Part shown: piece after piece, positions 54,036 through 64,000 of the stretch | Numbering within the stretch: position 1 is the first letter of the stretch | How the letters are laid out: every line of letters begins with the position of its first letter | Origin: Roseivirga seohaensis | GTDB lineage: Bacteria; Bacteroidota; Bacteroidia; Cytophagales; Cyclobacteriaceae | Direction: 5' to 3' | DNA: 64,000 nt | Assembly (NCBI RefSeq): GCF_001592945.1 | Contig: NZ_LRPB01000006.1 | Coordinates: 124,001 to 188,000, forward strand | Program-made: the position numbers and the translations under genes | Notes under the pieces: generated by a model | The model's database searches: none | What the model was told of the DNA's origin: nothing | What the model saw: the letters and a program-made list of their open reading frames with translations, nothing else

Positions 54036-54222
54036 CTAACGGATTTATAACCAATTAAAACCCCCATTATTTTAAAGCGCGTTTTTCTGAAAGTTTTGAT
54101 AAATTAAATGTGATATGGACGTCATGTTTGTAGCGTATGCATAAACTTTGAGAAAGGATGCCTGCTACCTGCTACTTATTTAAAACCGAACTAGAAACTC
54201 ATAAATTTCGTATTTTTAGACT

Positions 54223-54450
54223 ATGGATTGGAGAAACTATATCATTGCAGACGACACAGTATTATTAGGTAAGCCAACGGTAAAAGGCACAAGAGTGTCT
54301 GTTGAACATATCATCGGACTGTTAGCCCAAGGATGGACCGAAGATCAAATCCTAGAGAACTATCCGCGTCTAAATCATGAATCTTTGCAAGCGGTATTTT
54401 CTTATATCCAAGCATGTTTGAAAGATGGATTACTGTACACCACCTCTTAA
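54223..54450 (+). CDS. DUF433 antitoxin-like protein
   Basis: 75 residues: DTVLLGKPTVKGTRVSVEHIIGLLAQGWTEDQILENYPRLNHESLQAVFSYI, the full DUF433 profile (a short helix-turn-helix). DUF433 genes sit before PIN-like DUF5615 genes as a putative toxin-antitoxin pair, and that is the case here (10-nt gap). Confidence 0.9.
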   Translation: MDWRNYIIADDTVLLGKPTVKGTRVSVEHIIGLLAQGWTEDQILENYPRLNHESLQAVFSYIQACLKDGLLYTTS

Positions 54451-59689: not shown

Positions 59690-60901
59690 TTAAAATTTAT
59701 CCTGATGAGCAAATTGTTTTTTGGCTCCTTTTCTTCGTTCCAACTCCTTCTTAATCAAAGTTAATTCGCGTCCGCTTTGTCCTTTTACAGAAGTATTTTC
59801 ATTTGCCCTTCTCATCAAATACGGAATGGTAGCCTTAATTGGCCCATAAGGCACATACTTAATTACGTTATACCCTGCTGCCGCAAGGTTGAATGAAATG
59901 TGGTCGCTCATGCCATACAACTGACCAAAGTAAACTCTTCTATCATCTCTTGGTAAACCATACTTTTCTAGATAAAGCGTTACCAAATAATTACTCTTCT
60001 CGTTGTGTGAACCTGCAAAAAGGCCTAAATCATCAATATGTTTAATGCAATATTCGGTTGCTGCATCAAAATCTCTATCCGTTGCTTCTTTGTTAGGTTG
60101 AATTGGATTTTCATAGCCCATTTCTTGCGCTCTTTCAGCCTCCTTTTCCATGTAAGCCCCACGCACTAACTTTGCGCCTAGCCTATAGTTGTTCTCTTTG
60201 GCATCTGCATGCAGCTCTTTCAAATGGCCTAACATGCTATGGGCATACATCTGAAAAGTATAAAACACTAAGGCCTTTTCCGTATTGTACTTGGCCATCA
60301 TGTCTCTCGTAATTTCTGTTACGGGTTTCTGAATCCAAGTTTCTTCTGCATCAATCAACACAGAAACATCCTTTCGCTTGGCTTCGGCACATATCATATC
60401 TACCCTAGCCTTCACTCTTTCATAAGCAGCGGCTTCCTCTTCTGTCAGTTTTTCTCCTGCATGAATTTTAGTCAGTAAATCAAAATGAGCCAAGCCTGTA
60501 ATCTTAAAAGCAGAAAACCGAATGAACTCATATTGGCTCGCTCGGTCTATGGTTCTCATTATTTCTTGTGCACTTCCATCAAATCCTTCTTCAGATTTCT
60601 CTCCTTCAACAGAATAATCGAAAATGGCACCAATACCAAAAGCCGCCAACTCATTAGTAGCACGCTGACACCCATCTAGTGTTTCGCCTCCACAAAACAA
60701 ATTGAAAATGGTTTTTCTAATGATTCCCTTTACTGGCAAACCTACATTTAACGACCACTTGGTAAGGGCCATTCCTACTTTTACCAATCCGGGAGATTGC
60801 ATAGTAGAGAAAATAAAATGCGCTTGCTTAAGTGCTTCGTCAGTTCGAGCCGCAAAGGCATTCGTAAGGTTGTCAAAATCAACAAACTTTTTTAGTTCCA
60901 T
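59690..60901 (-). CDS. Proline dehydrogenase
   Basis: 403 residues, FAD-dependent barrel. ISVLIDAEETWIQ, ALVFYTFQMYAHSML, LGAKLVRGAYMEKE, AGSHNEKSN, VYFGQLYGMSDHISF and YGPIKATIPYLMRRANENTSV are the proline dehydrogenase signatures, including the C-terminal RRxxEN-type substrate arginine pair. It oxidises proline to pyrroline-5-carboxylate; the P5C dehydrogenase partner is not in the window. Start at ATG 60901 (MELKKFVDF), preferred over 60934. Confidence 0.93.
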   Translation of the reverse strand: MELKKFVDFDNLTNAFAARTDEALKQAHFIFSTMQSPGLVKVGMALTKWSLNVGLPVKGIIRKTIFNLFCGGETLDGCQRATNELAAFGIGAIFDYSVEGEKSEEGFDGSAQEIMRTIDRASQYEFIRFSAFKITGLAHFDLLTKIHAGEKLTEEEAAAYERVKARVDMICAEAKRKDVSVLIDAEETWIQKPVTEITRDMMAKYNTEKALVFYTFQMYAHSMLGHLKELHADAKENNYRLGAKLVRGAYMEKEAERAQEMGYENPIQPNKEATDRDFDAATEYCIKHIDDLGLFAGSHNEKSNYLVTLYLEKYGLPRDDRRVYFGQLYGMSDHISFNLAAAGYNVIKYVPYGPIKATIPYLMRRANENTSVKGQSGRELTLIKKELERRKGAKKQFAHQDKF

Positions 60902-60926
60902 AGCGATATTCAAAGTCCGCAAATAT

Positions 60927-60960
60927 AGTAACAAACCAATAGTCTCCTACCTTTGTTACT
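60927..60960. promoter_or_regulatory. Inverted repeat in the putA-like/aroA divergent promoter region
   Basis: AGTAACAAA (60927-60935) and TTTGTTACT (60952-60960) are exact reverse complements with a 16-nt spacer. A minus-strand TATATTTG (60927-60920) next to it fits a -7 element for the proline dehydrogenase gene. Could be an operator for one or both genes. Confidence 0.5.
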
Positions 60961-60983
60961 AATGAGTTGCAAACGAAATATAC

Positions 60984-62081
60984 ATGACTAATCTCCCTTT
61001 ACACAGACGGTTAGACAGCGACAAAAAGCCCATCATTATTGCCGGGCCTTGTAGCATAGAAAGCCAAAGTCAATTTTTAGAAACGCTTAAAGGATTAGAC
61101 CTTTCTAAAGTAGACTTTATTAGAGGCGGAATTTGGAAACCCCGAACCCGCCCCGGCTCTTTCGAAGGCATGGGCGAAGTGGCTTTTGAATGGGTGAAGG
61201 AAGTGCAAAAGGAGCTCGGTTTTAAGTTTGCTACCGAAGTAGCCTCTACCGAACATGTAGACATTGCTTTAAAAAATGGCGCTGGCTTATTATGGATTGG
61301 GGCACGTACCACCGTTAACCCATTTAACGTACAAGAAATTGCCGAAGCACTCAGAGGCACAAACCTTCCTGTTTTTGTAAAGAACCCCATCAATCCAGAT
61401 TTATCACTTTGGAAAGGGGCTTTGGAAAGGCTGTTAAAATGTGACGTCAAAAATCTTGGTGCCATACACCGTGGCTTTCAAACTTTTCAGCAAAGCAAAT
61501 ATCGCAATACTCCGCTGTGGCAAATCCCAATGGAATTGAAAAGTGAATTCCCAGACTTGCCTTTGCTCTGCGACCCAAGCCATATCGGTGGAAAAAGAAG
61601 TCTCATAGCAGAACTATCGCAACGGGCTTTAGACCTTGATTTTGATGGCTTAATGATTGAAACGCATATTGACCCTGACAATGCGCTTAGTGATAATGCG
61701 CAACAGCTTACTCCCAATGCCTTTAATCTTCTTTTGGAGAATCTGATTTTAAGAAATCATACTTCTAAAAATGAAGACTTCAACAATCAGCTAGACATTA
61801 TTCGTGAGCAAATAGACCAAGCAGACAGGGAAATATTGGAAGCTATTGCCACCCGATTGAGCCTGGTTGAAAAAATTGGAGAGTTCAAAAAAGACAACAA
61901 CGTGGCTATCTTTCAAATTAGCCGCTGGAAAGAGATTTTGCAATCCAGACCAGAATGGGCGAAATCTTTAAACTTAGACCCCGAATTTATTCGCGAACTT
62001 TACCGACATATTCATCAGCAATCCGTAAGGATACAGACATCCGTATTTAATACAGAACAAGACAAACAACCTAATGACTGA
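60984..62081 (+). CDS. Bifunctional DAHP synthase (type I-beta) / chorismate mutase (AroQ), first copy
   Basis: 365 residues. The N-terminal DAHP synthase domain has IIIAGPCSIES, FIRGGIWKPRTRPGSFEGMG, WIGARTTVNPFNVQE, KNPINPD, CDPSHIGGKR and LMIETHIDPD. The C-terminal ~90 residues form an AroQ chorismate mutase (LDIIREQIDQADREILEAIATRLSLVEKIGEFKK). The same domain order occurs in the characterised Porphyromonas gingivalis enzyme, where the mutase domain gives prephenate-dependent feedback. It starts the aromatic operon and overlaps the next gene by 8 nt. Confidence 0.93.
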   Translation: MTNLPLHRRLDSDKKPIIIAGPCSIESQSQFLETLKGLDLSKVDFIRGGIWKPRTRPGSFEGMGEVAFEWVKEVQKELGFKFATEVASTEHVDIALKNGAGLLWIGARTTVNPFNVQEIAEALRGTNLPVFVKNPINPDLSLWKGALERLLKCDVKNLGAIHRGFQTFQQSKYRNTPLWQIPMELKSEFPDLPLLCDPSHIGGKRSLIAELSQRALDLDFDGLMIETHIDPDNALSDNAQQLTPNAFNLLLENLILRNHTSKNEDFNNQLDIIREQIDQADREILEAIATRLSLVEKIGEFKKDNNVAIFQISRWKEILQSRPEWAKSLNLDPEFIRELYRHIHQQSVRIQTSVFNTEQDKQPND

Positions 62082-62616
62082 ACTAGGACTACTCGGCCCT
62101 GAAAACACTTATCATGATATGGCTAGGCAAAAGTTTTTGCCCAATATGAACCATATGCTTTTCACCTCTTTTGATGAAATTTTTAAAGCGCTCAAAGAAA
62201 AGCGAATTAAAAAAGCATTGATCGCCATCAAAAACAACACCTCCGGCTTAGTTGGAGATAATTTAGAGCGAATCAAAAACTCTGGCCATCGTATTCTGGA
62301 GCAATTTGAGCTTCCGATTCATCTTTGCTTGGGAAGTTTTAAGGCAACCAATATTGAGGGAATAAAGAAGATTTATTCTCACCCAATGGCAATCAAAGAG
62401 ACCCAAAAATTCTTTATCAAATACAGCCATATCACTTTCATTTCAAGTACTAGCACGGTAAGTGCCATTCATGAATTGAAGAATAACCGTGAAAAAAACG
62501 CAGGGGTAATTGCCAGCAAAGATGCGATAGAAGCCAATGATCTTATATTGTTATCAGAAAACATTGAAGACCATTCAACCAACAGCACTACTTTCGCTTT
62601 GGTAGAGAATGCTTAA
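62074..62616 (+). CDS. Prephenate dehydratase-like protein lacking ACT domain and TRF motif
   Basis: 180 residues, about the size of a lone prephenate dehydratase catalytic domain. LGLLGPENTYHDMA corresponds to the family GPxGTFS-A start, and YSHPMAIKETQKFF, STSTVSAIHEL and GVIASKDAIE follow in order. The expected catalytic Thr-Arg-Phe near the end reads STTF, so the Arg is missing, and GTF is NTY. There is no C-terminal ACT domain for Phe feedback. It may be a divergent, non-catalytic or altered-specificity form. It is in an operon with the DAHP synthase-chorismate mutase, so an aromatic role is likely. Confidence 0.72.
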   Translation: MTELGLLGPENTYHDMARQKFLPNMNHMLFTSFDEIFKALKEKRIKKALIAIKNNTSGLVGDNLERIKNSGHRILEQFELPIHLCLGSFKATNIEGIKKIYSHPMAIKETQKFFIKYSHITFISSTSTVSAIHELKNNREKNAGVIASKDAIEANDLILLSENIEDHSTNSTTFALVENA

Positions 62617-62670
62617 AAAATAATTTCATTTTATATTTTTCTTTAAAGAAGAGATACCTAAGTTTATCGC

Positions 62671-62748
62671 ATGTTAGCAGCAAGGACATCATTTTATTAC
62701 TTTTTTTACTTTAGAACCCACTCGGGATCGAGCCTGCGCTATCATTAA
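62671..62748 (+). CDS. Aromatic leader peptide (Phe/Tyr-rich), attenuator control
   Basis: A 25-codon ORF from ATG 62671 to TAA 62748 in the gap between the dehydratase-like gene and the second DAHP synthase. Codons 8-14 encode FYYFFYF, i.e. seven consecutive aromatic residues, then RTHSG... and stop. A hairpin with nine T's follows 24 nt later. This is the layout of the pheA/pheS leader peptides of Enterobacteria, here with mixed Phe and Tyr. No strong ribosome site is visible, which is normal in this phylum. Confidence 0.72.
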   Translation: MLAARTSFYYFFYFRTHSGSSLRYH

Positions 62749-62772
62749 ATGAAATTGTAAAAATATTTTATT

Positions 62773-62804
62773 AGCCCGGTTCGAAAGAGTCGGGCTTTTT
62801 TTTT
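62773..62804 (+). terminator. Intrinsic terminator/attenuator upstream of second DAHP synthase
   Basis: AGCCCG (62773-62778) and CGGGCT (62791-62796), then nine T's (62796-62804), ending 14 nt before the ATG at 62819. Antiterminator candidates: CTCGGG/TCGGG (62721-62726) with CCCGG (62775-62779), or TCGAGCC (62728-62734) with GGTTCGA (62778-62784, one G-U pair). Both use bases of the terminator's 5' arm and overlap the leader peptide's coding end. Confidence 0.78.
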
Positions 62805-62818
62805 GACCAAACGTAATT

Positions 62819-63913
62819 ATGAACATCATCGACATTAAAGATTGGGGGCTAGGATTATCAGAGCATGTGCTTATTGCCGGCCCTTGCAGCGCAGAAAGTC
62901 CGCAGCAAATCGAAACCATTGCCAAAGGTTTAAAAGGAAGCCCTGTTGAGTTATTTAGGGCGGGGGTATGGAAACCCAGAACTAGACCGGGCTCTTTTGA
63001 GGGCGTTGGTGCTGAAGCATTAGAATGGCTACAAATTGCCAAAGACATTCTGAATGTGCCCGTTACCGTAGAAGTAGCGAAAACAGAACATGTAGAAGCA
63101 GCACTAAAAGCTGGTGTAGACGTGCTTTGGATTGGCGCTAGAACCACGGTAAACCCATTTTCGGTACAAGAAATTTGCGAAGCCTTAAAAGGCACCAACA
63201 TTCCTGTAATGGTAAAAAACCCGATCAATCCAGACCTTCAACTTTGGTTAGGTGCTTTTGAAAGGCTTAATAAAGTAGGCATTAAAAAAGTAGCTGGTAT
63301 TCATAGAGGTTTTTCAGATCCTTACGAAAAAAGATACCGCAACAAGCCTGAGTGGTCTTTACCCATTCACTTAAAACGCATGATTCCTGGCATTTCTGTG
63401 ATTTGTGACCCAAGCCATATTGCTGGCGCACGCGAAATCATTGGAGCCGTGAGTCAAAGGGCCATTAACTTTGGCTTGGATGGTTTAATGATTGAAACCC
63501 ATCACGACCCAGACAAGGCTTGGAGCGATGCCAAACAACAGATTACCCCAGACACGCTCAAGATCATTTACGAAAGCCTAATTTTCAGAGAAAATGTAGA
63601 TGAACATCCAGAAATGCTCAATGAACTGGAGCAGTTCAGACAAAAAATTGATTTACTAGATGCCCAATTACTAGAACTTTTTGCCGAAAGGTTCAAAGTA
63701 ATAGAGCAAGTAGGCGACTATAAGCGTGAACATAATTTGGCCGTTTACCAGCCCAGCCGTTGGGAAGAAGTAATGGAAAGCAGAATTCAGGATGGCTTGC
63801 GTAAAAACATGACGGAGAAGTTTATGAAAAGCCTTTTATTTGCTATTCACGAGGAATCAGTGAAAAAGCAAGAAGCACAACTGAAAGAAACCCGTCCATT
63901 AACAAAAGCATGA
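62819..63913 (+). CDS. Bifunctional DAHP synthase / chorismate mutase, second copy
   Basis: 364 residues with the same architecture as 60984-62081 and clear homology throughout: VLIAGPCSAESPQQ, LFRAGVWKPRTRPGSFEGVG, CDPSHIAGAREIIG, then an AroQ domain (LEQFRQKIDLLDAQLLELFAERFKVIEQVGDYKRE). The two differ enough to be old paralogues, probably differently regulated isozymes. This copy is the one preceded by the Phe/Tyr attenuator. aroB starts within its stop (ATGA). Confidence 0.93.
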   Translation: MNIIDIKDWGLGLSEHVLIAGPCSAESPQQIETIAKGLKGSPVELFRAGVWKPRTRPGSFEGVGAEALEWLQIAKDILNVPVTVEVAKTEHVEAALKAGVDVLWIGARTTVNPFSVQEICEALKGTNIPVMVKNPINPDLQLWLGAFERLNKVGIKKVAGIHRGFSDPYEKRYRNKPEWSLPIHLKRMIPGISVICDPSHIAGAREIIGAVSQRAINFGLDGLMIETHHDPDKAWSDAKQQITPDTLKIIYESLIFRENVDEHPEMLNELEQFRQKIDLLDAQLLELFAERFKVIEQVGDYKREHNLAVYQPSRWEEVMESRIQDGLRKNMTEKFMKSLLFAIHEESVKKQEAQLKETRPLTKA

Positions 63914-64000
63914 GCCACATTGTAATTGACCACATAGAAACCAGCCTTAAGGCGGTATTAAAGGAAACTGACTTTACGCAACTAGCGGTTTTAGTCGATG
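63910..64000 (+). CDS. aroB: 3-dehydroquinate synthase, partial N-terminus
   Basis: The last 91 bases encode ~30 residues (HIVIDHIETSLKAVLKE ... LAVLVD) that fit the start of AroB, whose N-terminal domain begins with such a strand-helix-strand and a VLVDxN segment. The ATG overlaps the preceding stop by 4 nt. Next enzyme after DAHP synthase, so the order makes sense. The gene continues past the window. Confidence 0.7.
   Translation, partial: MSHIVIDHIETSLKAVLKETDFTQLAVLVD

Follow-up and report, generated by a model that had tools for sequence, protein, structure and literature searches.

The E. coli pheA (pheL) and trp attenuators combine regulatory codons in a leader peptide, protector, antiterminator and terminator arms in the leader RNA, and a terminator placed before the structural gene. 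The leader peptide of C. glutamicum ilvBNC is reportedly formed without a ribosome-binding site, as stated in the title of a study by Morbach from the year 2000, and a comparative study of 2010 by Lopatovskaya et al. may cover Bacteroidota. The aroF leader of C. glutamicum contains the residues Phe-Tyr-Phe (accessible text of PMC4046766). Leaderless short ORFs with polycysteine stretches have been reported from mycobacteria (Canestrari 2020, as described in parts of PMC9031893 and PMC13236596). Within Bacteroidota, leader attenuation has been suggested for amino acid operons of F. psychrophilum, in which conserved 5′ elements without an Rfam match precede pheA and hisG (main text of PMC9723704), and it is hinted at for B. 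thetaiotaomicron in the available part of PMC7366714. For Bacteroidota the motif Bacteroid-trp (RF01692) is also listed in a table. In the open-access literature that was searched, neither a Phe/Tyr attenuator of DAHP synthase nor a Tyr attenuator of phenylalanine hydroxylase was found described in Bacteroidota.

The window analysed here is a stretch of 64,000 nt from a genome of the Roseivirga group, Cytophagales. Its DAHP synthase is 99% identical to the copy of Roseivirga ehrenbergii KMM 6017, the best named match. In the NCBI taxonomy, Roseivirga belongs to Roseivirgaceae and Algoriphagus to Cyclobacteriaceae, two families of the order Cytophagales; the genome collection used in this study appears to pool the two genera as one family, since some same-family loci have leader stretches identical to those of named, mostly Algoriphagus, loci. 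Upstream of the second DAHP synthase gene of the window lies a leader that is very probably a ribosome-mediated transcription attenuator responding to the supply of Phe and Tyr (probability about 0.9). Its anatomy, conservation, mutually exclusive pairings and promoter spacing are observed by computation and are described below, and the coordinates of its elements are listed in Table 1.

Table 1. Features of the aromatic cluster and of the leader upstream of DAHP synthase 2 (window coordinates)
Feature	Position	Strand	Remark
DAHP synthase-chorismate mutase 1	60984-62081	+	
Prephenate dehydratase (pheA)	62074-62616	+	
−7 promoter box TAAGTTTA	62659-62666	+	Bacteroidota consensus TAnnTTTG; exactly 4 nt upstream of leader ATG
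Leader region	62671-62804	+	between prephenate dehydratase and DAHP synthase 2
Leader peptide ORF, MLAARTSFYYFFYFRTHSGSSLRYH	62671-62748	+	25 codons
Regulatory codons FYYFFYF	62692-62712	+	seven consecutive Phe/Tyr
Arm 1 of putative protector hairpin	62675-62695	+	pairs with arm 2
Arm 2	62720-62741	+	partner of arm 1 or, in the antiterminator, of arm 3
Antiterminator core	62728-62734 with 62778-62784, plus 62738-62741 with 62772-62775	+	
Arm 3	62772-62790	+	common to antiterminator and terminator
Intrinsic terminator (arms 3 and 4)	62773-62804	+	10 bp, GAAA loop, nine T; stem AGCCCGGTTC/GAGTCGGGCT, 62773-62782 with 62787-62796
DAHP synthase-chorismate mutase 2	62819-63913	+	predicted regulated gene; Pfam DAHP_synth_1 and CM_2
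aroB start (3-dehydroquinate synthase)	63910-64000	+	overlaps DAHP synthase 2 stop; runs beyond window

The cluster contains two DAHP synthase-chorismate mutase paralogues that are about 49% identical to each other, and the leader is positioned before the second only. Beyond the window edge, aroB is followed by aroA (EPSP synthase) and an ABC transporter-like ORF identified by eye, and a proline dehydrogenase gene is divergent from the aromatic cluster. An earlier note on this DNA had placed the leader inside an aromatic operon. The leader does precede DAHP synthase 2 and aroB, but it probably has its own promoter and heads its own transcription unit (leader, DAHP synthase 2, aroB and aroA) instead of acting solely as a site within a longer operon.

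The 25-codon ORF with seven aromatic codons recognized in the earlier note is present at the position given in Table 1, and the hairpin described there, with a stem spanning 62773–62796, is followed by a tract of nine T's (62796–62804) that ends 14 nt upstream of the DAHP synthase 2 ATG at 62819. A short upstream ORF with six or more aromatics in a stretch of nine residues occurs at only one of the 43 genes of 120 amino acids or more in the window, namely DAHP synthase 2; the same scan shows no such leader before the first DAHP synthase gene (60984), in agreement with the earlier note. In first-order resampling of the 420-nt region, a comparable aromatic ORF arises in 114 of 5000 sequences, and a run of at least seven F/Y in one of 5000. 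The three terminator-like sites in 60900–64000 are at the chance level in number (3.2 expected from shuffles), and the leader terminator is the longest of them (10 pairs versus 5 and 5) and the sole one on the plus strand. Folded as a single sequence, the window leader does not stand out (z = −1.76; 10 of 200 shuffles do equally well); the weight of the argument rests on the comparison with relatives.

A search of 59 genomes with DAHP synthase 2 as the query identified 18 full-length orthologues in the genus, the window copy included, and only a distant match in the genus member G008, the genome of which is 84% complete. An aromatic leader begins 136–154 nt upstream of all 18 full-length genus orthologues and also precedes four of four orthologues at 60–63% identity from other genera. 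The set of 80 named loci that were examined comprises 59 orthologues with at least 60% identity and 21 loci with 49–54% identity. Whether it was sought by aromatic content or by promoter spacing alone, the leader is present at 57 of the 59 named orthologues. The two misses are a match at a contig edge with nothing upstream (L138) and an interrupted match at which no leader was found (L111). At 49–53% identity, a run of four aromatics is absent from seven of eight loci, and the aromatic-rich ORF at L030 is of a different kind; one of the 21 loci with 49–54% identity was flagged for a leader, which is chance-like (L158).

The covariance model built from 22 leaders was searched against 196 genomes of the family. 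It matches 184 of them at the loose threshold of E up to 1, and 68 at E ≤ 5.9e-10, 10 of these 68 being in the training set. All 29 strong model-matched loci that were read carry an aromatic leader, followed at 28 of them by a DAHP synthase motif no more than 500 nt away. The sets of leaders overlap, as 9 of the 22 aligned and 7 of the 29 model-matched leaders share an identical 120-nt stretch with a named locus. The comparison with close relatives proposed in the earlier note thus found the leader kept both in the genus and in related genera, and among the 22 aligned leaders the terminator and antiterminator stems are kept with some compensating changes.

The start of the leader ORF is positioned at a constant distance from its promoter box. 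The sequence TAnnTTT[GA] occurs exactly 4 nt before the start codon in all 57 named leaders that were found by aromatic content alone. The converse search, which used the spacing alone in the 90–300 nt upstream of the 59 named orthologues, yields 58 starts, 57 of which have at least six aromatics in codons 8–16. In F. psychrophilum the −7 box extends from −12 to −5 relative to the transcription start (accessible text of PMC9723704), and this geometry together with the 4-nt spacing would place the start of transcription at the A of the leader AUG. The leader peptide is predicted to be leaderless, with transcription starting at or within 1 nt of its ATG. The same attenuator could instead have an ordinary 5′ UTR, with a transcription start well upstream and a close box that is not a functional promoter. 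Such an arrangement would agree with the abundance of TAnnTTTR-N4-ATG in the window, where three occurrences against 3.14 expected by chance make a single one uninformative, and with the share of leaderless mRNAs in F. psychrophilum, which is only 5.5% in the same part of PMC9723704. It would also agree with the three of 29 model-matched loci that lack the strict 4-nt spacing found in the other 26, and with some leaders elsewhere in the phylum that have, in our reading, a box about 15–32 nt from the start, so that a leaderless start is not universal. However, the spacing was not used to find the 57 named leaders that share it, the four bases between the box and the start vary among them, and 52 of the 57 have a TTTG 16–22 nt above the box. 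An ordinary 5′ UTR appears unlikely to us, although it is the alternative to be taken most seriously.

Other counts place the predicted leaderless start in its genomic setting. The 4-nt distance between box and start is seen at none of the 43 genes in the window that encode 120 amino acids or more, and 5′ UTRs shorter than 10 nt make up about 3.7% in B. thetaiotaomicron (available part of PMC7366714). The window leader has no clear −33 TTTG upstream of its box. A sigma-70 scan returned 8 promoter-like sites versus 6.0 expected, with a model that is ill-suited to Bacteroidota. Elsewhere in the window, a 75-aa ORF (54223–54450; box and start at 54211–54225) begins 4 nt past a TAnnTTTR sequence and may be leaderless as well.

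The hairpin could also be a plain terminator of the upstream unit of DAHP synthase 1 and pheA, in which case the ORF would be accidental and its tract a T-rich pause signal or promoter feature. The terminator does sit 3′ of pheA at a distance that would enable it to end that transcript, and the codons for F and Y are inherently T-rich. The reading frame was examined at fixed codons 8–16 of leaders picked by promoter spacing alone, with no regard to aromatics, which gave 29 distinct segments. In the leader frame these segments contain 219 TTY or TAY codons, 42 other codons and no TTR or TAR, whereas the other two frames contain 26 and 71 TTR or TAR codons. None of 2000 within-segment base shuffles has as few TTR/TAR codons or reaches the TTY/TAY count of the leader frame, which indicates that the tract is conserved as codons. 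An earlier count, in which 160 of 160 codons were TTY or TAY, was set aside as circular because the run had been defined by its aromatic residues. A T-rich tract without a coding role is rejected on this fixed-codon test, and T-rich tracts are not a feature of the His and Trp leaders in the genus. With the conserved antiterminator pairing described below also standing against it, a plain terminator is very improbable.

The structural alignment comprises 22 leaders, from which 16 were picked as non-redundant for the permutation of pairing partners. The RNAalifold consensus of the leaders contains the terminator only (11 pairs). In the 22-row alignment, 97.9% of the cells of the terminator and 93.2% of those of the antiterminator are paired, compared to at most 59.9% and 54.9% in slid controls, and the covariation score of each element exceeds those of 500 out of 500 shuffles. 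Two stricter counts for the antiterminator do not exceed the shuffled level: 3 pairs have changes on both sides versus 2.2 in shuffles (181 of 500 as high), and further pair types are as high in 207 of 500 shuffles. For the terminator, two-sided changes and further pair types are each reached by 7 of 500 shuffles. Among the 16 non-redundant leaders, arms 2 and 3 pair with −17.5 kcal/mol with their cognate and −14.0 kcal/mol with permuted partners, and arms 1 and 2 with −14.2 versus −11.4 kcal/mol (1 of 5000 permutations for each); in only three rows for 2:3 and one row for 1:2 does the cognate partner rank first among the 16. Leader by leader, the 2:3 pairing is above shuffles at the 0.05 level in 20 of 22 cases and the 1:2 pairing in 9 of 22. 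The window leader scores 0.007 for 2:3 and 0.233 for 1:2, the latter being not better than shuffles.

The most direct sign of the putative antiterminator is a co-switch of bases in the terminator loop with bases of arm 2 (C-G,T-A versus T-A,G-C), which is observed in 19 of the 22 leaders. The switching pair of bases lies in the terminator loop of most leaders and is dispensable for the terminator there. The exceptions are L017, in which the co-switch fails and the antiterminator is weak (−9.5), and L020 and L021, which pair in a shifted register. The aligned leaders are related by descent, and hence the number of independent switches is small. The earlier note had offered two alternative pairings that would break the terminator. 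That of 62728–62734 corresponds to the conserved core of the antiterminator, with 62778–62784 as its partner, but that of 62721–62726 is not conserved among relatives and was ruled out as an antiterminator.

Folding of the leaders in successive states is consistent with a switch. The untranslated leader folds into the terminator in 22 of 22 cases. When a ribosome, represented by an assumed footprint, is stalled in the middle of the run and arm 4 is not yet made, the antiterminator forms in 22 of 22. With the ribosome placed at the stop codon, all 22 leaders form the terminator, a result that follows largely from the exclusion of arms 1 and 2 from the fold. When arm 4 is added to the stalled leader, the antiterminator survives in the minimum-energy fold of just 5 of 22 leaders, the window leader included, and therefore the switch must depend on the temporal order of arm synthesis. 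In Algoriphagus-type leaders (L022 and L023) the stop codon is located about 20 nt beyond arm 2, so that this step must work differently there; arm 1 would need to pair with arm 2 again in the wake of the ribosome.

The leader thus has a short ORF rich in codons of the pathway products, an intrinsic terminator between this ORF and the structural gene, both in the window and in all 22 aligned leaders, and, by computation and with the two stricter counts weak, a mutually exclusive antiterminator that uses the 5′ arm of the terminator. A protector hairpin of arms 1 and 2 is a candidate element, favoured by the 16 non-redundant leaders taken together but not by the window leader on its own. From this arrangement we infer translation of the leader, stalling, a response to starvation and a leaderless start. 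RNA polymerase would initiate at or beside the leader AUG, and a ribosome would load on the 5′ end of the RNA and translate the leader. If Phe-tRNA or Tyr-tRNA were scarce, the ribosome would stall in FYYFFYF and cover arm 1, leaving arm 2 free to pair with arm 3 once arm 3 is made. The terminator would then be prevented, and DAHP synthase 2, aroB and aroA would be transcribed. If charged tRNAs were plentiful, the ribosome would reach the stop codon and either cover arm 2 or pass on so that arms 1 and 2 re-pair; with arm 2 sequestered, arms 3 and 4 would make the terminator. A leader left untranslated would lead to termination too.

In some leaders it is the nascent peptide that arrests the ribosome, TnaC being an example, and the leader analysed here might in the same way sense free Phe, free Tyr or another ligand in the exit tunnel instead of uncharged tRNA. 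A translated leader followed by a terminator is common to both mechanisms. However, the 57 named leaders, two of which start with GTG, encode 46 distinct peptides, F and Y interchange inside the run, and the residues outside the run vary, whereas stricter conservation would be expected of a specific arrest sequence; peptide arrest is highly improbable. A riboswitch or T-box sensing the amino acid or tRNA directly, for which a structured leader with terminator and antiterminator could speak, is rejected as barely credible, because no Rfam family matches at gathering score in 60900–64000 (best over the leader L10_leader, 26.6 of 44 bits) or in 15 related loci (best relevant match that of the genome's own trpE leader to RF00513, 34.4 of 41 bits), and the conserved features include a reading frame.

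The leader of DAHP synthase 2 has sister leaders in the same genome. The leader MLHSSAHHYYYYYPNDRNGSAM, with a terminator, precedes the phenylalanine 4-monooxygenase gene (NF008877, 270.3 bits versus a cut-off of 247) on the reverse strand near 1499–1639 of locus L062. Of 88 genomes, 58 contain a match to phenylalanine hydroxylase. Thirty loci of the family were read, 11 of which have, in our reading, a Tyr-run leader before the gene. The automatic scan also flagged 11 hydroxylase loci, 8 of them in agreement with the Tyr-run leaders read; the flagged loci L286, L291 and L297 are chance-like and were dropped before the pairing test. The best nine-residue windows of the 11 Tyr-run leaders contain 54 Y and 2 F, and a strict box precedes seven of these leaders, at 5, 5, 5, 5, 6, 6 and 9 nt. 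In these Tyr-run leaders, pairing of the arms is better with cognate than with permuted partners (27 and 48 of 5000 permutations). This leader is predicted to be a Tyr-specific attenuator of the enzyme that converts Phe to Tyr.

A WWW leader precedes trpE in all nine genus loci read (L220 and eight others, of 18 strong matches), with a box spacing of 5–8 nt; the copy in the source genome, MRNTNLHSAWWWHLTELS, is followed by a hairpin and a T run. A His-rich leader was flagged before hisG in 13 of the 14 genus loci read (of 19), the source genome included, with L186 as a near-miss and a box spacing of 4–7 nt. The spacing scan for trpE and hisG was limited to 2–8 nt. The residues of the leaders match the genes that follow them: F/Y for DAHP synthase, Y for phenylalanine hydroxylase, WWW for trpE and His for hisG. 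No obvious hairpin with a T run is seen at the hisG leaders (L188 and 13 others, within L180–L198), most of which are followed, as judged by eye, by a GGCCTACGCGGTC-like segment. It is possible that the hisG leaders have a different mode of control. No Ile/Val/Leu leader was flagged before ilvD at any of the 10 loci read, out of 17 found in the genus. In another family of the order, the leader MQPITYTILISVIIITALF and a terminator precede ilvD (L178:455–586), probably as a branched-chain attenuator.

Similar leaders are found more widely. The 12 order-level model matches that were read comprise seven with an aromatic leader, one with Ile/Val/Leu (that of ilvD at L178) and, in our reading, four with none; counted among the last is L168, with an aromatic-rich ORF resembling the end of a coding region. 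At the phylum level, 14 of 24 matches read have an aromatic leader, which the other 10 lack, and many low-scoring matches of the model are terminators only. The aromatic leaders of the order and phylum precede genes of DAHP synthase, phenylalanine hydroxylase and pheA, with most identities assigned by eye. Prephenate dehydratase genes (pheA) with aromatic leaders were seen at L246, L248, L250, L251, L253, L255, L256, L260, L263, L264 and L268, two of these phylum loci being identified by Pfam and the rest by eye. The remark in the earlier note that attenuation is rarely described in this phylum needs qualification: the leader is not a lone oddity, as the genome also has Tyr, Trp and His leaders, and attenuation has already been suggested for F. 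psychrophilum (accessible text of PMC9723704).

Attenuation by a leader peptide is a known kind of control, and what is less expected here is the predicted leaderless start and the Tyr-specific sister on phenylalanine hydroxylase. We lean, with modest confidence, towards the wider reading that in Roseivirga and Algoriphagus, and in part of Bacteroidota, leaderless or nearly leaderless attenuators with codons matched to the products govern the supply of aromatic amino acids, Trp and His. In this wider scheme the promoter would set the transcription start at the leader AUG and the first ribosome would load directly on the 5′ end, in a phylum not reliant on Shine-Dalgarno sequences, and the leaders would include a Tyr-only sensor on phenylalanine hydroxylase. 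The window leader, of a type covered by no Rfam family, is a concrete and comparatively supported example of probable classical attenuation in Bacteroidota, a subject on which the accessible parts of the literature give brief suggestions only. If the leaderless start is true, attenuation at this leader needs initiation at the 5′ terminus and not Shine-Dalgarno loading, which bears on the coupling of transcription and translation in Bacteroidota. If the Tyr-run leader functions as predicted, phenylalanine hydroxylase serves the supply of Tyr in these bacteria and not only the breakdown of Phe.

The leader of DAHP synthase 2 shares regulatory codons, antiterminator and terminator arms and a terminator upstream of the structural gene with the E. 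coli pheA and trp attenuators, and its arm 1 is a candidate protector arm. It differs from them in its mixed Phe and Tyr codons and in a start predicted at the 5′ end of the mRNA, unlike the Shine-Dalgarno leaders of E. coli, and it does not match the Trp_leader family RF00513 at gathering score. The elements before pheA and hisG of F. psychrophilum are alike in belonging to Bacteroidota and in the leader attenuation suspected before amino acid operons; they precede other genes in another family, and the main text of PMC9723704 gives no codons, pairing or promoter spacing. The mycobacterial polycysteine ORFs, as far as the accessible descriptions go, resemble the window leader as short ORFs, leaderless by prediction here, with consecutive codons of the amino acid sensed, but they differ in sensing cysteine and in attenuating downstream translation, not transcription. 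The C. glutamicum aroF leader likewise places Phe and Tyr codons before a DAHP synthase gene, in a different phylum and with three aromatic codons compared to typically six to eight in the leaders described here. The ilvBNC leader of C. glutamicum is reportedly similar in its start without a ribosome-binding site, which is predicted here. Unlike in C. glutamicum, a start free of a ribosome-binding site and the Phe/Tyr codons are predicted to occur together in one leader.
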